From the NCBI GenBank assembly GCA_016932575.1, contig JAFGCO010000055.1, positions 248,001 to 312,000 on the forward strand: 64,000 bases of DNA. Reading direction: 5' to 3'. Of the stretch, positions 48,895 to 58,830 are shown piece by piece (position 1 is the first letter of the stretch; every line of letters starts with the position of its first letter). The notes beneath the pieces were generated by a model. It was given only the letters and a program-made list of their open reading frames with translations, was not told the origin of the DNA and searched no databases. The position numbers were made by a program, and so were the translations under genes. The stretch comes from a bacterium. GTDB taxonomy: Bacteria > Zhuqueibacterota > QNDG01 > JAFGCO01.

Positions 48895-49662
48895 ATGAAA
48901 AATCGATTGACAAAGATTATCAAGGATATGCTTCGCAGTGTGGGTGAGCTGTTCTACTTATGGAAAGACACGCTGCGCTATGGTTTCAAGCGGCCCTATG
49001 AGTTAAGATCGCTGCTTGCCCAGATGGAAGAGCTTGGTGTAAATTCGCTGTCTATTGTGATTATTTCCTGTTTTTTTGTGGGGATGGTTATGGCAGTACA
49101 GGTGGCATATTCCGAAGCCAATTTTGCCGGGCGGGTCATGGTAGGCATCGGCGTGGGAGTGGCCATTACCAAAGAATTCGGTCCTCTGCTTACGGCGCTT
49201 CTTGCGGGAGGTCGTGTCAGTGCGGGCATTACTTCAGTGCTGGGTTCGATGACGGTTACTGAACAGGTGGATGCGATCCGGCTCCTTGGAGCCAGCCCTG
49301 CCAAGAAACTGGTTTTTCCCAGAGTTTTTGCAGCGGTTCTCATGTTTCCTTTGCTAACCGCAGTTGCGGATTTTATGGGTATTCTCGGCGGATTGGTCGT
49401 GAGCCTTGTGGACATTAAGATGGGATTTACCACATATGTTTCTCAAGTTGAGCGCGCCGTCAGTCTGTCGGACTTTTTCGGAGGCATTATGAAGTCCGTA
49501 TTTTTTGCCTTTTTTGCCTCTCTGATCGGATGTTATTACGGATTGAAAGTTGAAGGTGGGGCAGAGGGGGTTGGAGATGCGACAACCCGTTCTGTTGTGG
49601 CCACCTCAGTATGTGTCATGGTGGTGGATTACTTTCTGACCAAGCTTTTGGTGATATTTTAG
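48895..49662 (+). CDS. mlaE: MlaE-family ABC transporter permease
   Basis: 255 residues with about five membrane helices. Signatures: VVIISCFFVGMVMAVQVAY-like helix (SIVIISCFFVGMVMAVQ), TKEFGPLLTALLAGGRVSAGI and TVTEQVDAIRLLGASPAKKLVFPR are the central MlaE motifs. It is the inner-membrane permease of the phospholipid transport system that keeps outer-membrane asymmetry. Confidence 0.94.
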   Translation: MKNRLTKIIKDMLRSVGELFYLWKDTLRYGFKRPYELRSLLAQMEELGVNSLSIVIISCFFVGMVMAVQVAYSEANFAGRVMVGIGVGVAITKEFGPLLTALLAGGRVSAGITSVLGSMTVTEQVDAIRLLGASPAKKLVFPRVFAAVLMFPLLTAVADFMGILGGLVVSLVDIKMGFTTYVSQVERAVSLSDFFGGIMKSVFFAFFASLIGCYYGLKVEGGAEGVGDATTRSVVATSVCVMVVDYFLTKLLVIF

Positions 49663-49818
49663 GTTTGATACATGGGGAAGAACATCAAATTATAAAAGTA
49701 AACAAGCTTATGATGTTTAATTGAGGATGATTATTCTGGTGTATATTTGATTTTATAACAGCCAGGGCATTTAAATGTATTCAAGTAACCATTTAAAATA
49801 TAAATAAGTCGGTTATTT

Positions 49819-50547
49819 ATGGCACCGTTTGTTTTTTTTGATGAAGTATATAAGTCTTTTGATTCCAAAGAAGTTCTGCGTGGTCTCACCCTGGTGATAC
49901 GACAGGGAGAAGTCCTGGTGATTCTGGGGGGAAGCGGTACAGGAAAAACAGTCATTTTAAAACATATCGTTGGATTGATTCCGCCCGATACGGGCCGTGT
50001 GTTTGTTCAGGGTAAAGATATTACAGATTTCAGTGAGAATATGTTAATCCCTGTTCGCAGAAAGGTCGGATTTCTTTTCCAGGGAGGTGCTCTTTTCGAT
50101 TCCATGAATGTATTTGACAATATCGCATTTCCGTTACGGGAGCATACTGATTTTTCAGAAACAGTCATTTCCGAGAAAGTCAAAGAAAAACTCAAGATGG
50201 TCGGTCTCGAGAATATCGAGCGGATGATGCCTTCAAAGCTTAGCGGGGGAATGCGAAAACGTGTGGCCTTGGCCCGTGCCATTATTCTTGAGCCGGAAGC
50301 GCTGCTTTATGATGAACCAACCACGGGTCTGGATCCCATAACAACAAAATGGGTCAGCAAATTGATGAGGCAGGTTCACGAAAACTTGAAAATCACTTCT
50401 GTTATTGTAACGCATAATATTCAAAGTGCAATGTCAGTGGCCGACCGAATCGCGTTTCTGTATCGGGGCCGAATCAAGTTAGTCGGTACACCGGATGAAA
50501 TTATGGAATGTGACGATCCCATTGTCCATGAATTTTTAAGAAGTTGA
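49819..50547 (+). CDS. mlaF: MlaF-family ABC transporter ATP-binding protein
   Basis: 242 residues. Walker A GGSGTGKT at 37-44, Q-loop (VGFLFQGGALFDS), signature LSGGMRKRV, and Walker B (LLYDEPTTGLD), followed by the H-loop in VTHNIQSA. The residue order and the FQ.GALFDS motif are typical of MlaF. A 156-base gap separates it from mlaE. Confidence 0.95.
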   Translation: MAPFVFFDEVYKSFDSKEVLRGLTLVIRQGEVLVILGGSGTGKTVILKHIVGLIPPDTGRVFVQGKDITDFSENMLIPVRRKVGFLFQGGALFDSMNVFDNIAFPLREHTDFSETVISEKVKEKLKMVGLENIERMMPSKLSGGMRKRVALARAIILEPEALLYDEPTTGLDPITTKWVSKLMRQVHENLKITSVIVTHNIQSAMSVADRIAFLYRGRIKLVGTPDEIMECDDPIVHEFLRS

Positions 50548-50557
50548 GGGAATATCT

Positions 50558-51553
50558 ATGAAATATAAATATACACGTGAAATCAGGGTAGGGGCAGTCA
50601 TTGTTGTGGCTCTTGCCATTATCATTGGCTTTGTCTTTACTTTAGGCGGCAACGGGGAATTTTTTAGCAGCAAACTGAATTACAAAATCTTATTTAAATC
50701 AACCGCAGGCCTTTATGAAGGCGATCCGGTATTACTCACTGGCGTGGAAGTGGGAAACGTAACCAAGATTGGATTTCCGGAAGATTTGAAACAGAAGAAA
50801 ATTTTGGTGGAAATTACAGTAGACAGGTCCGTCGGCGATCGTATCCGGGAGGATACGCGGGCCTGTGTGGGATCGGCCAGTATTGTATACGGTAAAGTGG
50901 TCGAATTAAGCATTGGAAGCCTGGATCAGCACGTGATTCCTGATGGCGGATGGATTAAAACCATGGAAAAATCAAGCTTTAATTCTGTTGTGGACAGTAC
51001 CCAGCAGGTCATGGGTAGCATTCAGAACGTGATTGCCAAAATCAATCAAGGAGAGGGCATGCTGGGCATGCTGTTGAATGAGCCTATGGAGTTGAAAAAA
51101 ACGCTTCATCATTTGTCGGTTTCTACTGAAAAGCTGTCCTCTATTCTTGATAAGCTGGATCGGGGGAAGGGGCCAATGGGCAGTGTGCTTTCGGATTCTG
51201 TAGAGTTCAGCAATACGTTGCATGAACTGAAGATGACCGTGACTGACCTGAAAAATGTCAGCCAGTCTCTAAGAAGTGATAAAACGGTACTCGGACGCCT
51301 GATCAGTGATGAAACATATGGTAAAACAGTGACTCAGGATTTGCAGAAAACCCTTCATGCACTGGCAAATATCACTACAAAAATCGATACAGGTGAAGGA
51401 TCCGCGGGAATGCTGATCAACGATCCTGAACTTTATATCGGTTTGCAGGATGTGGTTCTGGGCGTGCAAAAAAGCAAGCTGACCCGATGGCTTGTTCAGA
51501 ACCGTCGGAAAGCAGGTGAAAAGGCGCGGGAAGAACAGGCAAACGGGGAATGA
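50558..51553 (+). CDS. mlaD: MlaD/MCE-family lipid-binding protein
   Basis: 331 residues. One N-terminal membrane helix (about 10-28), then an MCE domain at about 38-115 (YKILFKSTAGLYEGDPVLLTGVEVG). The rest is a helical tail with repeating EGMLGMLLNEP and TVLGRLISDE, GSAGMLINDP segments, usual in MCE proteins. It binds lipids in the periplasm and contacts the permease. The last codons lie just before an MscS remnant. Confidence 0.93.
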   Translation: MKYKYTREIRVGAVIVVALAIIIGFVFTLGGNGEFFSSKLNYKILFKSTAGLYEGDPVLLTGVEVGNVTKIGFPEDLKQKKILVEITVDRSVGDRIREDTRACVGSASIVYGKVVELSIGSLDQHVIPDGGWIKTMEKSSFNSVVDSTQQVMGSIQNVIAKINQGEGMLGMLLNEPMELKKTLHHLSVSTEKLSSILDKLDRGKGPMGSVLSDSVEFSNTLHELKMTVTDLKNVSQSLRSDKTVLGRLISDETYGKTVTQDLQKTLHALANITTKIDTGEGSAGMLINDPELYIGLQDVVLGVQKSKLTRWLVQNRRKAGEKAREEQANGE

Positions 51554-51586
51554 TCTCTTGATTCTAAAAAATTTCAATCAGGATAT

Positions 51587-51991
51587 GGGCTCAAATTTTG
51601 TGCCAGTGGGAATGGAATCAATGGCCTTTGCTTTGGCTGCCATAGACACCATGACCAATATGATTGCCGGATTTAGGATTATGATGGATCAACCCTTTTG
51701 GCGGGGAGACCGCATCCTGCTTGAATCCGGAGAAAAAGGCGAAATTTTTGATATCAGGCTTCGCGGACTAAGATTCTTATTTTTGAAAATATACTGATCG
51801 TTGTTCCAAATCAGCAGATCATCAATGAAAAATAAACCAACATCAGCTGTCAGGATCCCCAGATCCGGGCTGCAGTTGAAGCGGGTGTGGCGTATGGTTC
51901 TGATCTGGATCGTATCAAGTTGATTCTCGAGACGATCTGCAGGGAGCATCCGATGTTCCGGATGATCCGCCCCCGCAATCGTATTTTTTAA
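51587..51991 (+). pseudogene. MscS mechanosensitive channel remnant
   Basis: Frame-broken piece of a small-conductance mechanosensitive channel. Frame 1 (to 51797) carries ALAAIDTMTNMIAG, MMDQPFWRGDRILL and GEIFDIRLRGL, equivalent to the pore helix and the upper beta domain. A shift in the next frame gives NILIVVPNQQIIN and a stop, and later VEAGVAYGSDLDRIKLIL with a C-terminal REHP segment, ending at TAA 51989-51991. The first half of the channel gene is absent. Its right end overlaps a minus-strand gene. Confidence 0.8.
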
Positions 51992-52586
51992 ATGTCGGAA
52001 AATATTTTCCGACATTTCTGCAGTATTCAAGCCAATCATTACCAAATCTTCTGTATAAATCTCGGGCTTCTGTATCCACCTTGAAATTATAACCATAAAT
52101 TAAAATGATCATAGTAAATAATCCCAATACATTTGGGATAAATAAAAATATGCCCAGACTGTACAAAAACATCCCCAGAACAACCGGATTACGAATAAAA
52201 TGATATATTCCTTTTGTCATCAGTTTTGTTTCTTCATATGGAGAGTGTATTCTCATTGAGTCTCCCAGTGATGTGCCCGCAATGATTTCAATCGTTGTTG
52301 CTCCATAAATAATAACCAAAGCGGCCCATTTGATAAATACAGTATTATTCAGTATTTTTACAGGAAACAGACAATTTGAGATATTACTGTCAATGATATA
52401 ATAAATCCATAATAGCAATAACAGTAAGGTTGATAATATTATTGAAATGCTGCCAAACATATTTTGTGATGTTTCTCTCCTGCCTATCGGATTAACCCCT
52501 TTCATTTTTATTGTAATTACTCCGCTTATGAAGCATAAAAATAAAATGATAAGATTGATGAGCAATGATAATTGAAAAATGTTCAT
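51915..52586 (-). CDS. Isoprenylcysteine carboxyl methyltransferase family protein
   Basis: 223 residues with about five membrane helices. The PEMT/ICMT signature is GIYHFIRNPVVLGMFLYSLGI, followed by DTEARDLYRRFGNDWLEYCRNVGKYFP, which is the conserved C-terminal SAM-binding part. The natural family end is near VGKYFP; the last about 20 residues (CGGGSSGTS and onward) are read from the antisense of the MscS remnant. A perfect palindrome at 51990-52017 lies at this join. Membrane methyltransferase, substrate unknown. Confidence 0.83.
   Translation of the reverse strand: MNIFQLSLLINLIILFLCFISGVITIKMKGVNPIGRRETSQNMFGSISIILSTLLLLLLWIYYIIDSNISNCLFPVKILNNTVFIKWAALVIIYGATTIEIIAGTSLGDSMRIHSPYEETKLMTKGIYHFIRNPVVLGMFLYSLGIFLFIPNVLGLFTMIILIYGYNFKVDTEARDLYRRFGNDWLEYCRNVGKYFPTFKKYDCGGGSSGTSDAPCRSSREST
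51990..52017. repeat. Perfect 28-base palindrome at the MscS/ICMT junction
   Basis: AAATGTCGGAAAAT (51990-52003) is exactly complementary to ATTTTCCGACATTT (52004-52017), with no loop. It codes the NVGKYFPTF part of the ICMT-like protein and abuts the MscS remnant stop. No T-tract follows in the right direction for a terminator. Confidence 0.75.
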
Positions 52587-52776: not shown

Positions 52777-53190
52777 TTAATCAGGCAATTCGCTCAAGGT
52801 CCAATAAAGATTAATTGTTCTGACAGTTTCAATAAATTCGGTATACGTCACCGGTTTTAACATATATCCAGCCACGCCAAGTTTGTAACTTTCGATAATA
52901 TCCTGATCATCTTTTGATGTCGTTAAAATCACAACCGGTATACGGTCTAAAAGGGATTGTTTTCTGGCCACCTTTAAAAATTCGATGCCGTTCATTCTTG
53001 GTAAATTGATATCAAGCAAGATGATACAGGGATTTTCCTCACGGTCATTCTGAAGGTAACCAATCGCTTCTTCCCCATTTTTTACAACATCGAGTCTGTT
53101 AATCACATGAATGTCTTTCAGAGCGCGTTTAACTGTCATCGCATCAACACGGTCGTCCTCGACCAGTAAAATCGGCTTGTTTTTATTCAT
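52777..53190 (-). CDS. Single-domain response regulator (Rcp1-like)
   Basis: 137 residues, receiver only. Acid pocket VEDDRVDA, phospho-acceptor D60 (IILLDINLPRMNG), threonine in LTTSKDD and lysine in LKPVTY. The insert-style layout (NGEEAIGYLQ) is typical of Rcp1, the partner of phytochrome-type kinases. No output domain, so it probably signals by phosphotransfer or protein contact. It is the last gene of the operon, 3 bases after the preceding kinase. Confidence 0.93.
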   Translation of the reverse strand: MNKNKPILLVEDDRVDAMTVKRALKDIHVINRLDVVKNGEEAIGYLQNDREENPCIILLDINLPRMNGIEFLKVARKQSLLDRIPVVILTTSKDDQDIIESYKLGVAGYMLKPVTYTEFIETVRTINLYWTLSELPD

Positions 53191-53193
53191 AGG

Positions 53194-53889
53194 TCACCCT
53201 TTTTCTTTATTTCGCGGCAGAGTAAAGAAAAATGTACTGCCCTTGTTTTCTTTGGATTCGAGCCAGAGATGCCCTCCTGCCAGTTCAATCATTCGTTTAC
53301 TCAGAGTCAGTCCGATTCCTTTGCTGTTGGTGTCATCCTTGGAGTGTAATGTTTGAAAAATTTGGAATATTTGTTTATGATACTTTTCCGGAATTCCAGG
53401 GCCGTTATCTGAAACGCTGAACCGCCAAAATTTATTTTCTTTGGAAAAATCAATCTCTATTTTGCCTTCAGACTTATCCATATATTGTACTGCGTTTCCG
53501 ATGAGATGTCTGAATATCTGTTCCACATGCGTTTTTTGGCAATTTATAACGGGCATGTTTTTCATTTTTGTACATGTGATGTGCTTTGGAATTTTCATCA
53601 CAGTGATCACATAGTCGACCAGTTGATTTAGATCAACAGATTTAGGTTCAATGTTTTCGCGACCGATACGTGAATACAACGAAATACTGTCAATGATATC
53701 ATCCATGCGTTTCACACGGTCCAGAATCAGCATTAGATGTTCCTGTCCCGATTCAGTAAGACGATCCCCGTTCTCCTGAGTGATCCATTTTGTCAGTATT
53801 TGTATGGCTCTTAAGGGTGCTTTCAGGTCATGAGAAATAATATAGGCAAAATATCCAAACTCATCGTTTTGTATTTCCTGCGAATTCAT
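53194..53889 (-). CDS. Sensorless histidine kinase
   Basis: 231 residues: only the HisKA and HATPase domains. H20 is in AYIISHDLKAPLRAI; N-box HLIGNAVQYM; G-boxes SDNGPGIP and NSKGIGLTLSKRMI. It is clearly a paralogue of the C-terminal half of the adjacent kinase (shared FQTL, EKYHKQIFQIF). The lack of sensor or membrane helix suggests that it works as a phosphotransfer partner or gets its input from the neighbouring proteins. Confidence 0.93.
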   Translation of the reverse strand: MNSQEIQNDEFGYFAYIISHDLKAPLRAIQILTKWITQENGDRLTESGQEHLMLILDRVKRMDDIIDSISLYSRIGRENIEPKSVDLNQLVDYVITVMKIPKHITCTKMKNMPVINCQKTHVEQIFRHLIGNAVQYMDKSEGKIEIDFSKENKFWRFSVSDNGPGIPEKYHKQIFQIFQTLHSKDDTNSKGIGLTLSKRMIELAGGHLWLESKENKGSTFFFTLPRNKEKG

Positions 53890-53903
53890 TGTTCTTGCCT
53901 TGT

Positions 53904-55502
53904 TTACGTCTTTACAATTGACGGTTTATTAATGGAATCCTTTGTCTTTCGGGGAATTGTAAAAGCAAATGTGCTCCCTTTCCCCAGTGCCGATTTAACC
54001 CAGATTTTACCGCCGCTGTTTTCAATGATTCTTTTGACAATGGTGAGTCCTATTCCCGTGCTTTCGATTTCATCTCTTGGTTTGAGTGTTTGGAAAATTT
54101 GAAATATTTTTTCGTGATATTTTGATTCTATTCCAGGACCGTTATCTGTTATACTGAATTTCCAGAAGCCATTATTTTTCCGGCAATTAATAGAAATGAT
54201 GCCCTGATCTTTATCCATATATTTGATTGCATTCCCGACCAGATTCTGGAATACTTGTTCGATGTATATTTTTTCATATTCGACGACAGGAAGCCTGGTT
54301 TTTTTTTGTATGCTGATATTTTTTGGAATTTCTAACAGGTCTGCCAGGTTATCAATCATTTGATTCATATCCACTTTTTGCTTTTCTTCTTTTATTCTTC
54401 CGACTTTTGTGTATTGTAATATCCCTTCAATGAACCTGTGCATGCGTTCAGTGCGATTTACCAGTAAATCCAATTGTTCTTTTCCGTCCTCATCAAACAA
54501 ACTGCGATAATCCAAAGCTATCCATTGAACGAGAGATCCAATGGCACGGAGTGGCGCTTTCAGATCATGGGACACAATATATGCGAAACTTCGCAGATCT
54601 TCATTTGCCGATTTCAGTTTGATCAGCAAGTCCTGCTGTCTGGATTCGATCTGTTTGCGGACGTCTATTTCGTTGGTTAACTGGGCATTGGATTTTGCTA
54701 ATTCCCGTGTTCTTTCTGCAACCCGTAATTCCAGTTCATTATGTATTTTATTAATATTATCAATCATATAATTAAATGAGTCTGCCAGGTTCTCGAATTC
54801 ATCTCCTGTATGGATATCCACCCTGACATCCTTTTTGCCCGATGTATATTGATTGGTGACTTTGTTCAATGTGTGAATCGGGTGGATAAGAGATCGGGTG
54901 AAAGCGATTGAGATCAGTAATCCATAAATAGAAAAAATGATAAACAGGATAAGCGATCGTTTATACAGATGCTTTACTGCTGCATTGATGGGATCTGTCG
55001 AAAGCCCGATATGGATCCAACCCCAGTCAATACCCGAATAGCTGAAAAAGTGAGAATAGTGAAAACATTCATGATTTTTCAATTCTGAAAATGTGATATA
55101 TGCTTTTTTCCTCAGTCTGGAATCAGGCACCCAGTCTCCTGCCAGCGTATCGATGGACCATGTATTGATCGTATGAATTAAGGAAAAACCATCATTCTTT
55201 GTGATCACAATATACTCTAACGATTTGCTGTCTTCTATTACATTGAGACAATGGTCGACAATGAAACTGTAATCCTCTAATATAATAGCATTGAAAGTTA
55301 CCTGACTGATTGAGGTTGCTATTCCCCTGGCTTCTGTTTCCATTCTGTCTATGATGATTTTTTTCTGAAATGGAATGATCGACCAGATATAAAGTCCCAG
55401 TACAAAAATAATAACCAGCCAGATGAAAAAGGCAAATTTAAAATTAATGCTTTTCAGATTAATTTTACTTTTGAGCCCGTCTATATTCTTAGATATATCC
55501 AT
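53904..55502 (-). CDS. Membrane histidine kinase with periplasmic sensor and HAMP
   Basis: 532 residues. Membrane helices at about 22-44 and 182-202 enclose a periplasmic sensor of about 135 residues (no recognised fold). HAMP at about 200-252, a coiled coil (to about 300), HisKA with H312 (YIVSHDLKAPLRAI), and HATPase (NLVGNAIKYM, TDNGPGIE, STGIGLTIVKRII). The kinase core is of the bacteriophytochrome type. It sits between two periplasmic binding proteins and a second kinase, so the sensor probably reads one of those proteins. Confidence 0.94.
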   Translation of the reverse strand: MDISKNIDGLKSKINLKSINFKFAFFIWLVIIFVLGLYIWSIIPFQKKIIIDRMETEARGIATSISQVTFNAIILEDYSFIVDHCLNVIEDSKSLEYIVITKNDGFSLIHTINTWSIDTLAGDWVPDSRLRKKAYITFSELKNHECFHYSHFFSYSGIDWGWIHIGLSTDPINAAVKHLYKRSLILFIIFSIYGLLISIAFTRSLIHPIHTLNKVTNQYTSGKKDVRVDIHTGDEFENLADSFNYMIDNINKIHNELELRVAERTRELAKSNAQLTNEIDVRKQIESRQQDLLIKLKSANEDLRSFAYIVSHDLKAPLRAIGSLVQWIALDYRSLFDEDGKEQLDLLVNRTERMHRFIEGILQYTKVGRIKEEKQKVDMNQMIDNLADLLEIPKNISIQKKTRLPVVEYEKIYIEQVFQNLVGNAIKYMDKDQGIISINCRKNNGFWKFSITDNGPGIESKYHEKIFQIFQTLKPRDEIESTGIGLTIVKRIIENSGGKIWVKSALGKGSTFAFTIPRKTKDSINKPSIVKT

Positions 55503-55525
55503 AATCTTTCATTGCATTCTTTTAT

Positions 55526-56437
55526 TTATTCATCTTTTAAAAAACGGTTATATCTTTTCAGTAATGTTCGGATGTTCTCCAGGTATTTTTCTCTATATGG
55601 AATCAATTCATTGAAACGGAACAATATTTGAAGTTGATCCGAGGTTTTATTTGCTGCCCATTTAAGAGCCAAAGATGTTAAATAATCTCTGGCTTCTTCA
55701 CTTAACTGTTCTGTATAGGTAAGAATGGTGGATATCATGAGTGAATCGGATGTAACAATTGGCATCAATTGAGTGTTGAGTTGCGGATTCAGTTCACTCA
55801 TCGTGTTAAATGCACCTTCCGTGATAATGCAGCAGTCCGTTTGTTTCATCAAAAGAGGAAAAATGACTTGGAATTCCCGTTCTTTTTTAATGACCTCGCT
55901 GAAGAACCGGTTGGATGGCGGTAGATCCGCCTCATACAGCATGACTTCAAGCCAGGTATCTATTAAGGACGGTGACGATTCCTGTTTTAGCACCAGTGAT
56001 TTGTCTGCCAGATCCTGAATTCCGACGAAATGACTGTCTTTTCGAGCAAGTAATACAAAACGGTCTGAAACAGATTCTTTAATTTTTGCACAAACAGCAG
56101 GATAAAGTTTTAGGGTTTGATTCAATTGGATATAATCAATGGGGGGTAGAGGTGCAATATTAATCCGGCCGTCAATCATCGCCTGAATCAATTTGTCCAA
56201 ATCATCATAGACATAAAACTCGGTTTTATAATACTCTTTATCAAGGAAATCCTCTGCCCATACTTTAATTGCGGCTTTAACATCCTGTTCGTTCACCTCC
56301 GGAAGTACCGATATTGGAAAACCAAAATTCAGTTGCACCGGGGAGGATGTGGTTTCACTTTGAGCAAGCCCCCTGATTGAAAGCGCCAGGACAAAAACAA
56401 AGAGAGCAATGATTTGAATGTATTGTTTTATAGACAT
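55526..56437 (-). CDS. PhnD-like periplasmic substrate-binding protein (paralogue A)
   Basis: 303 residues with a signal peptide (IALFVFVLALSIRGLAQ). The fold is PhnD/phosphate-phosphonate type: LNFGFPISVLPEVN, DDLDKLIQAMIDGRINIAPL (the usual RGEVDIA-type strand), ARKDSHFVGIQDLADKSLVL and TDCCIITEGAFNTM. The C-terminus (FRFNELIPYREKYLENIRTLL) is like the partner gene. There is no ABC permease or ATPase nearby, so it is likely a sensor component. Confidence 0.85.
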   Translation of the reverse strand: MSIKQYIQIIALFVFVLALSIRGLAQSETTSSPVQLNFGFPISVLPEVNEQDVKAAIKVWAEDFLDKEYYKTEFYVYDDLDKLIQAMIDGRINIAPLPPIDYIQLNQTLKLYPAVCAKIKESVSDRFVLLARKDSHFVGIQDLADKSLVLKQESSPSLIDTWLEVMLYEADLPPSNRFFSEVIKKEREFQVIFPLLMKQTDCCIITEGAFNTMSELNPQLNTQLMPIVTSDSLMISTILTYTEQLSEEARDYLTSLALKWAANKTSDQLQILFRFNELIPYREKYLENIRTLLKRYNRFLKDE

Positions 56438-56456
56438 GTTTACGATTATCCGCTAT

Positions 56457-57410
56457 TTAGTAATTCAGAGTCTGATATTGCTTAATGACCTCGAATGTGT
56501 CGTGCAAATAGGCATCTTCATAGGGTAAAAAATCATCGATATCAAATAACTCCATTAACTGTTCCCCTCCGGTCGTTTGTTTCATATTCAATAATGTCTC
56601 TTCTATCAAACTGCGGTTGTCATGTTCATCTGTTAATGATCTGTTTAGACAGAGCACACCGTTAACGAAGCCCGGGGATTCTTCGATGATTGTTATGTCC
56701 TTTGCAATCTGTGGATTCATTTCCTTGAGGACCTCAAAAGTCTGTTTCTGTACCAGGCAGACATCTGATTTGCAGAAAAAAACCCGCATGACCGCTTGTT
56801 CAGGTCGTTGGATCATGTCGATTTGCGAGAAAAAGGAGCTGACAGATGGAAGATGGTTTTCATTGAGCAGCGAATTCAGCCAGTAGGTGGGCAAATCTGA
56901 TTCAACCCAGACACTGAGAATTAAAGTTTTATTTGCAAGGGCCTTCAATCCGGATCCCGGCATATCCCTCCTCGCACAGAGGACATAATGTTCATATATT
57001 TCATCCTTCTCGATTTCGATCAGAAAAGGATCCACAATATTTTGTTCAATCAGTTCCGGCAAATCCTCGGACAACACAGTGATGAGATCCAGCTTTTTCG
57101 CTTTTAAATCAGCTATGATTTCATCATTATTTTCATAAATGATGGTTGTTAATTGGACGTTTTTTTTCATTTCCTGTACGGTTTTAAGGGTGATCAGATG
57201 CGCTGCCGCTGCTGCATCCCGAATATCCACATTATAAAATACTTTTTTTGAAAATCCGATCTCAAGATTTAAGATATTATCGGTCGCTTCTTCTGAGCAG
57301 TTGATTGATGAAATAAACTTTACTTCTGATCTCTTGGTCGTCATATTCTGGGCAGAAGCGATGACACCTGTTATCATCAGTAGAAAGCAGCTTATTCTAA
57401 TTTGTATCAA
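56457..57410 (-). CDS. PhnD-like periplasmic substrate-binding protein (paralogue B)
   Basis: 317 residues with a signal peptide (ISCFLLMITGVIASAQ). Same fold as the neighbouring gene: KKLDLITVLSEDLPELIEQN, LIIEIEKDEIYE-like strand, MPGSGLKALANKTLIL and SDVCLVQKQTFEVLKEMNPQ. The end, FDIDDFLPYEDAYLHDTFEVIKQY, parallels paralogue A. It starts at TTG 57410 with GAGGAA upstream and overlaps the TolC gene by 14 bases. Confidence 0.82.
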   Translation of the reverse strand: MIQIRISCFLLMITGVIASAQNMTTKRSEVKFISSINCSEEATDNILNLEIGFSKKVFYNVDIRDAAAAAHLITLKTVQEMKKNVQLTTIIYENNDEIIADLKAKKLDLITVLSEDLPELIEQNIVDPFLIEIEKDEIYEHYVLCARRDMPGSGLKALANKTLILSVWVESDLPTYWLNSLLNENHLPSVSSFFSQIDMIQRPEQAVMRVFFCKSDVCLVQKQTFEVLKEMNPQIAKDITIIEESPGFVNGVLCLNRSLTDEHDNRSLIEETLLNMKQTTGGEQLMELFDIDDFLPYEDAYLHDTFEVIKQYQTLNY

Positions 57411-58830
57411 GCGTATTCCTCTTTATGAAATCGGTTACTTGTTCGGCCAGCAAATATTCAAGGTCTGTCCTGATCCGATAATGATCATAAAGCGATTTCT
57501 CTAATTTTGCCTTCATCAGTGCTTCAATGATCTGTGCTTCGATTAAATCCTTTTCGGTTAAGATTTCTATCCGGTAGGCGCGCTTTACCAGTTCGAGATT
57601 TTCCGATGCAGTCGCATACACCTCCTTCGAAATCTCAACGCCCTCCTGGGCTGCCATGAGTTGGAAAAAATGACTCTGCACCATCAGTGTCAGCCCCTGC
57701 TTAAAAAGCGTATATTGATGGCGCAACTGCGTGGCCCGGCTTCGAACTTCCTGAACTTTATTTTTATAGCGGAATCCATTGAAAAAAGAATAATTGAGTC
57801 CCAGACCAATCAGCCAGAGCTGTTTATTTTCAGGGGTCATCATGCCATAATTATATTTATTAAAAAGCCGTGTATGCTGACCCACAAGACCTATATGAGG
57901 ATACAGATACCCCTTGCTCTCCTTCAATTTTTGATCAAAGACACTACTTGCAAGTTGAATTGTCTTTAACTCCAGATTCTCTGACAGCATCCGGTGAACA
58001 TATGAATCAAGATCCTGACTCAACGCCTGGTGGGGAATCACATTCTCAGCCAGTTTAATGGGCTCATTCCAGGGAAGGCCGATGCTGAATTTCAGGGCCG
58101 CCTCAGCGAGTTTATTGCTCTTCTGAAGTTCAACAATCAGCATCTTCACATTATCCACAATCAGTTTGTTTTTCAGATAATCCGTTTTCTTTACCCGGCC
58201 TGAACCGTTTTTGTATAAGGACTCCGTTAAATCCAGGGTTGCGTTCAGACGGTCGAAGGCCTCCTGGCCGATGTCAGTCAGATGATTCGTCAGTACGACT
58301 GCGTAATAATATTTTTTCACATCGCGAGTGATTTCATTCCGGGTTTTCTGTATGTCATTTTGAGCGATTTGAACCCCCAGGGCTGCCTGATTTTTCAAAG
58401 CAGATACAATGCCGCCGGTATACAGCGGCATTGTCAGTTTTAAAGAAGCAGTCAGATTCTGATTATCCATTAATTTGATATGTTGTTCCGCAACAGTAAA
58501 ATCCATATCAGGCAGGTTGATACTGGATTTGGGGAAGATAAAGGTGGGTTCTTCATCTGTGACCGAGTAATAAGCAGAAGCGCTTAATTGAGGCCAATAG
58601 GCAGAAAGGGCTTGTTTTTTCTGTGCCTCGGCGATATTTAAGGATTCCAGGGCGATCCGTTGTTTCACATGATGCTCAAGTGCCATCTCAATACAGTCAT
58701 CAAGAGTATAATAATGCAAAGTCTCTCCGGGGATTTTCTCAATCATTTGTGCATTGAGCATGACGATCCGGACTGACAATAAAATCGTTGAGGTTAACAA
58801 AACAACATTATCGCGAATACCTGAGCACAT
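57397..58830 (-). CDS. TolC family outer-membrane protein
   Basis: 477 residues with a signal peptide-like N-terminus. OEP repeat features: YTLDDCIEMALEHHVKQRIALESLNIAEAQKKQALSAYWPQLSA, in pieces, the common TolC start, and a second repeat around ELKTIQLASSVFDQKLKESKGYLYPHIGLVG. The rest is long helices. Such proteins form the outer-membrane channel for tripartite efflux or type I secretion, but no membrane-fusion or pump gene is adjacent. GGAGA precedes the ATG. First gene of the operon with two binding proteins and two kinases. Confidence 0.9.
   Translation of the reverse strand: MCSGIRDNVVLLTSTILLSVRIVMLNAQMIEKIPGETLHYYTLDDCIEMALEHHVKQRIALESLNIAEAQKKQALSAYWPQLSASAYYSVTDEEPTFIFPKSSINLPDMDFTVAEQHIKLMDNQNLTASLKLTMPLYTGGIVSALKNQAALGVQIAQNDIQKTRNEITRDVKKYYYAVVLTNHLTDIGQEAFDRLNATLDLTESLYKNGSGRVKKTDYLKNKLIVDNVKMLIVELQKSNKLAEAALKFSIGLPWNEPIKLAENVIPHQALSQDLDSYVHRMLSENLELKTIQLASSVFDQKLKESKGYLYPHIGLVGQHTRLFNKYNYGMMTPENKQLWLIGLGLNYSFFNGFRYKNKVQEVRSRATQLRHQYTLFKQGLTLMVQSHFFQLMAAQEGVEISKEVYATASENLELVKRAYRIEILTEKDLIEAQIIEALMKAKLEKSLYDHYRIRTDLEYLLAEQVTDFIKRNTLDTN

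Follow-up and report, generated by a model that had tools for sequence, protein, structure and literature searches.

The operon examined here contains a real and conserved gene module that is unnamed within the open-licence literature. As judged from comparisons among genomes, its core combines a TolC-family outer-membrane channel with between one and five periplasmic binding proteins and a histidine kinase that has a Cache-like sensor. These comparisons reveal a conserved gene order, co-occurrence of the parts, correlated divergence, family-specific motifs, and no recurring pump. Because the core recurs and no pump recurs with it, the gene set looks like an unnamed signaling module. The best reading is that it would work like a three-component system of the AioXSR/ArrXSR design, plus a dedicated outer-membrane channel.

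Gene content of the operon

The operon comprises six minus-strand genes at positions 52777 to 58830 of the window (the whole stretch of 64,000 nucleotides that was analyzed). Every open reading frame was confirmed at the coordinates given below. The TolC and SBP1 genes overlap by 14 bases, and the subsequent gaps are 19 bases (SBP1 to SBP2), 23 bases (SBP2 to HK1), 14 bases (HK1 to HK2), and 3 bases (HK2 to the receiver, RR). The open reading frame coordinates and Pfam domains therefore bear out the original prediction of a six-gene operon with tight gaps and one overlap. The features are as follows.

57397..58830, minus strand: TolC-family outer-membrane channel of a module-specific subfamily (Pfam OEP, E 1.2e-42)
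58165..58206, minus strand: codons for GSGRVKKTDYLKNK, the helix-turn tip of TolC repeat 1 (alignment A5)
56457..57410, minus strand: SBP1, the TolC-proximal PF12974 periplasmic binding protein (Phosphonate-bd PF12974, E 8e-18)
56709..56717, minus strand: NPQ motif of SBP1 (comparison of module binding proteins with unrelated PF12974 proteins)
55526..56437, minus strand: SBP2, the kinase-proximal PF12974 periplasmic binding protein (PF12974, E 1e-19)
55781..55789, minus strand: NPQ motif of SBP2, residues 217-219 (comparison of module binding proteins)
53904..55502, minus strand: HK1, a membrane histidine kinase (TM, Cache-like periplasmic sensor, TM, HAMP, HisKA, HATPase_c)
54942..55457, minus strand: HK1 sensor region, a single Cache/PDC-like fold (profile A7)
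53194..53889, minus strand: HK2, a sensorless kinase (HisKA and HATPase_c) that is a paralogue of the HK1 catalytic half
52777..53190, minus strand: lone receiver (RR), Rcp1-like (Response_reg, E 9e-21)

Judged by eye, the phospho-acceptor, N-box, and Asp/Thr/Lys residues are present in the set formed by HK1, HK2, and the receiver. No transporter genes were detected within the operon by Pfam. The earlier statement that no ABC permease or ATPase is adjacent holds for the operon itself, but an Mla-type ABC system (MlaE permease, ATPase, and MlaD; 48895-51553, plus strand) lies about 1.2 kb past its 3' end in convergent orientation. Two other genes occupy the same region. A gene resembling PEMT and isoprenylcysteine methyltransferases (51915-52586, minus strand) begins 190 bases downstream of the receiver and is possibly co-transcribed with it. 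A short open reading frame (51492-51850, plus strand) that resembles a fragment of an MscS-type channel, apparently from a disrupted gene, adjoins the 3' end of this methyltransferase reading frame.

Recurrence of the core order

Relatives of SBP2 in the phylum of the window pointed to four genomes. Three of these (G039, G042, and G015) have a cluster of TolC, one or two binding proteins, and a kinase that shares the N-terminal sensor of HK1. The fourth, G001, is the nearest relative, and its contig stops inside the first binding protein, before TolC. A TolC alignment search of named genome records, seeded with the tip motif SGRVKKTD, yielded 26 loci labeled Calditrichota, Geobacteraceae, Desulfuromonadaceae, Desulfobacteraceae, Desulfobulbaceae, Syntrophaceae, Nitrospiraceae, Riflebacteria, Verrucomicrobia, Acidobacteria, and others. 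A binding protein or sensor kinase adjoins TolC in all of them except L043, which has a distant TolC. A scan of named genomes with the single protein SBP2 gave no match, and a plasmid search with the module TolC returned only distant generic TolCs.

Since the search had been seeded with the TolC tip motif, the motif and the gene order were retested with a sensor-only profile (A7). HAMP was cut from this profile because its predecessor (A4, sensor plus HAMP) matched every HAMP kinase. Most module genomes give a single A7 match. In the window's phylum, scores of at least 332 bits occur in 6 of 82 genomes, and the next score is 98. A profile of the TolC subfamily (A5) reaches at least 581 bits in 5 of the 82 genomes, with the next score at 171, and all five are among the six sensor genomes; in the remaining one, G001, the contig stops short of TolC. 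Strong A7 matches were also found in three other phyla, where they are rare, in 2/345, 5/194, and 1/199 sampled genomes (centre genomes counted). Six new strong copies (L050-L055) were found by A7 alone, all with TolC and one to four binding proteins; in a seventh (L056), the kinase comes after a remnant of TolC.

In all 28 loci compared, the order is TolC, zero to five binding proteins, and the sensor kinase, on one strand. The locus with no binding protein between TolC and the kinase (L026) belongs to a genome that encodes module-type binding proteins with NPQ elsewhere. Labels on the 28 loci place them in Calditrichota, Desulfobacterota/Deltaproteobacteria, Nitrospirae, Verrucomicrobia, Acidobacteria, and Riflebacteria, although these are metagenome labels and are fallible (L018, labeled Actinomycetota, is a contig of G062 from the window's phylum). 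Most loci come from metagenome-assembled genomes, in which binning errors are possible. TolC distances correlate with sensor distances (r = 0.62; Mantel, 0/9999 permutations), to which shared species history may contribute. On this comparative evidence, the recurrence of the core order exceeds what chance would give.

The proteins that flank these loci share little. Among 87 flanking proteins near the 26 other loci, each family is represented twice at most, and adaptor, RND, and ABC families are absent from the 25 most frequent flanking families. By eye, branched-chain amino acid ABC-like genes are seen about 5 kb upstream in L025. Two Geobacter-type genomes carry a rubrerythrin gene downstream of the module (L021:18228-18803 and L035:16709-17344).

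The original prediction had proposed a genome search for its six-gene order, and this search found the core order in 28 loci from several phyla. TolC, the binding proteins, and the kinase proved to be the conserved part, whereas HK2 and the lone receiver fall outside the core. The order extends beyond one genome and homologous gene sets lack a transporter, which are the two points on which the prediction had been staked beforehand. Its view that transport in the usual sense is unsupported also holds, given that no ABC or RND pump recurs near the copies.

Binding proteins, sensor, channel, and outputs

SBP1 and SBP2 are only 23% identical to each other, and the SBP1 orthologue in G001 is 61% identical. 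The module binding proteins are nearest to ArrX in both sequence and fold, then to PtxB, PhnD, and AioX; an AF2 model of SBP2 (pLDDT 92) has the same four as its nearest folds. The pocket residues of AioX and ArrX have been reported, and those of AioX are Cys106, Tyr131, Ser161, Ser163, His192, and Asp210 (PMC5908839). Across 54 module binding proteins, the corresponding columns hold, in order, P/T/S, mixed residues, mixed residues, L, P/A/E, and T/S, so that these residues are not kept. We rejected phosphonate or arsenic sensing by SBP1 and SBP2 because the oxyanion pocket residues are not conserved. Likewise, the label “PhnD-like”, read against these alignments, carries no implication of a phosphonate ligand.

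An NPQ motif outside the pocket is present in 70 of 72 module binding proteins (the others have NPR and NPA) but in none of the 20 unrelated PF12974 proteins compared from the phylum. The variable pocket and the constant NPQ therefore suggest that the module binding proteins have different ligands and one shared partner. Their position in the gene order clusters on the tree, with 11 changes versus 15.7 in shuffles, but does not define a single clade; fixed roles for a “first” and a “last” binding protein are only weakly supported. At one locus (L108; G097:C161), an in-frame TAA splits a module-type binding protein. In the window's phylum, a histidine kinase adjoins most PF12974 binding proteins (L061-L089), which probably makes the annotation “phosphonate ABC transporter” misleading there.

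The N-terminus of HK1 is a single Cache/PDC-like domain flanked by transmembrane segments, and its fold resembles Cache domains. When compared with sCache_3 (PF17203), the window's sensor scores 14 bits, under the Pfam gathering cut-off of 28.4, and 14 of 24 members match weakly. Pfam finds no PF12974 domain in HK1. The HK1 sensor shows distant kinship, by profile comparison, with those of kinases in the phylum that adjoin PhnD-type binding proteins (probability 94-96%). Kinases that neighbor a family-5 binding protein contain weaker relatives (41-54 bits). Because its relatives sit in kinases beside binding proteins, we consider kinases that listen to binding proteins to be the natural setting of this domain. 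AioS does not match the sensor profile (-0.5 bits), and a match between the sensor and an alpha-hemolysin PDB sequence (E 0.04) was dismissed as chance. In L057-L060 (for example, L060:6646-10283), where the weakly related sensor kinase adjoins an SBP_bac_5 protein, a CheY-like receiver is encoded nearby.

Both OEP repeats are present in the module TolC, which can be aligned with TolC and CusC. At the turn that forms the tip of repeat 1, the window has GSGRVKKTDYLKNK and independent copies have G[SGA][GT]xVxK[TA]D[YFW]L; adaptors dock at this position in known pumps. The tips of the four other TolCs in the same genome differ and do not carry the module motif. By eye, adaptor-like genes adjoin at least three of these four, and an RND-like gene follows in one. 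Given that its tip is unlike those of TolCs with adaptor-like neighbors, we treat the module TolC as a separate subfamily. TolC proteins normally require an adaptor, which, like a pump, may be encoded at an unlinked site in these genomes, and this subfamily may dock something else.

Outputs differ from one lineage to another. HK2 is 49% identical to the HK1 catalytic half over 219 amino acids. The description of the receiver as Rcp1-like was accurate, as Rcp1 (E 7e-21), RcpA, and RcpB are within its ten best solved relatives (E 7e-21 to 1e-19). Besides the window, HK2 and the lone receiver accompany the core only in G001, where the receiver is 84% identical. A related receiver (39% identical) is found upstream of TolC in one other genus (L019/L018). 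Kinase cores across the loci are HisKA, HisKA_2, or hybrid; in Geobacteraceae-type loci, an HPt gene sits immediately upstream of TolC; and the L030 kinase itself carries REC-REC-HPt, with a GGDEF-EAL regulator adjoining in L030 and L039. This variation among kinase cores and outputs indicates that HK2 and the lone receiver are the output of one lineage and not part of the core. Directly upstream of the TolC module in L019 (4418-9802) is a TonB receptor, a YfiR/HmsC-like gene, a kinase, and an Rcp1-like receiver. Such TonB receptor, YfiR-like, and kinase clusters have similar outer-membrane, periplasmic, and kinase parts, but the protein families differ and the likeness is only an analogy.

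Proposed mechanism and related systems

Separate periplasmic binding proteins are known to act through the periplasmic domain of a kinase in LuxP-LuxQ and TorT-TorS. However, these binding proteins belong to other families, and their operons do not include an outer-membrane channel. The module shares a TolC-family channel with tripartite efflux and type 1 secretion systems (TolC, OprM, and CusC), but its operon has no adaptor or inner-membrane pump. TtrSR and ThsSR have kinases with a PhnD-like periplasmic domain (PMC5408782). A PhnD-fold unit informs a kinase there too, although it is fused to the kinase, whereas in the window it is encoded separately from a kinase that carries a Cache-like domain of its own.

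The closest comparison is with AioXSR and ArrXSR, in which a PhnD-type arsenite or arsenate sensor is joined by a histidine kinase and a response regulator (PMC5908839). As in the window, a separate PF12974 binding protein is encoded beside a membrane histidine kinase. The module binding protein fold is nearest to ArrX. By profile comparison, the sensors of XSR-like kinases of the phylum are probably distant homologues of that of HK1, but AioS itself is not matched. The module differs by adding a TolC channel and up to five binding proteins, and by its lack of arsenic pocket residues and arsenic enzyme genes. Furthermore, the window has no DNA-binding response regulator, and the output is a sensorless kinase with a single receiver domain. 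We do not assign the module to AioXSR because both the pocket and this regulator are missing. A search of the open-licence literature (PMC) found no named system for the module, in agreement with the earlier statement that no named system adding a TolC channel and a kinase-to-receiver relay was known.

We judge it moderately probable that the module is an envelope-spanning sensory system that combines binding protein-dependent signaling with a dedicated outer-membrane channel. The channel would form the outer-membrane part and would most likely serve as an entry port or docking point rather than as an efflux pump component, and it would bring ligand to the binding proteins and the sensor. It may otherwise release a ligand or act as a scaffold. 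SBP1 and SBP2, with their PhnD fold, would bind small ligands and contact HK1 at its Cache-like periplasmic domain, with a conserved face that contains NPQ as the probable contact surface. HK1 would then signal through HAMP to its kinase core. In the window's lineage, the output would be HK2 and the single-domain Rcp1-like receiver, with phosphotransfer from HK1 and HK2 to the receiver. Among these steps, sensing by the binding proteins appears well supported by the comparison, whereas we infer the contact with the kinase, the role of the channel in ligand entry or docking, and the phosphotransfer.

It is possible, if doubtful, that the module elaborates an AioXSR/ArrXSR-type system, with ligand sensing left to the binding proteins and the channel no more than a co-transcribed porin outside the signaling path. 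The resemblance of the binding proteins to ArrX and of the HK1 sensor to those of PhnD-paired kinases fits this reading, as does the fact that binding protein-kinase pairs without TolC are common in the window's phylum. Against it, TolC is present in 28/28 loci and diverges in step with the sensor, and its tip is conserved, which a passive porin would not need.

We find it rather unlikely that this TolC belongs to a conventional tripartite pump whose other genes lie elsewhere, with the binding proteins and kinase sensing the pump substrate and controlling the pump or a stress response. TolC proteins are known to be common to several pumps, and the genome has four other TolC genes, at least three with adaptor-like neighbors and one also with an RND-like gene. 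Regardless, no pump or adaptor family recurs near the 26 loci, and this TolC subfamily is distinct, is always accompanied by the sensor kinase where it occurs, and is unusual at its tip.

More speculative, and in our estimate improbable, is a variant in which the TolC trimer docks without an adaptor on the assembly of binding proteins and kinase. Several binding proteins with different pockets would feed one kinase through a shared NPQ face, and the channel would be part of the receptor, its opening or occupancy being signaled inward. Finally, a PhnCDE-type uptake system that was disassembled by loss of its permease and ATPase is very improbable. The match of the binding proteins to PF12974 speaks for it. 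Against it, conservation is missing at the oxyanion pocket residues, the operon has no permease or ATPase genes and neither family recurs around the other copies, and open, motif-bearing binding proteins across phyla speak against decay.

TolC channels are understood as the exit ducts of pumps. A TolC subfamily whose only companions are binding proteins and a sensor kinase, as envisioned in the envelope-spanning sensory system that we favor, would extend this channel family to sensing. The module would also offer a natural case in which several binding proteins with unlike pockets converge on one kinase, and its short invariant motifs make the proposed contacts directly testable.
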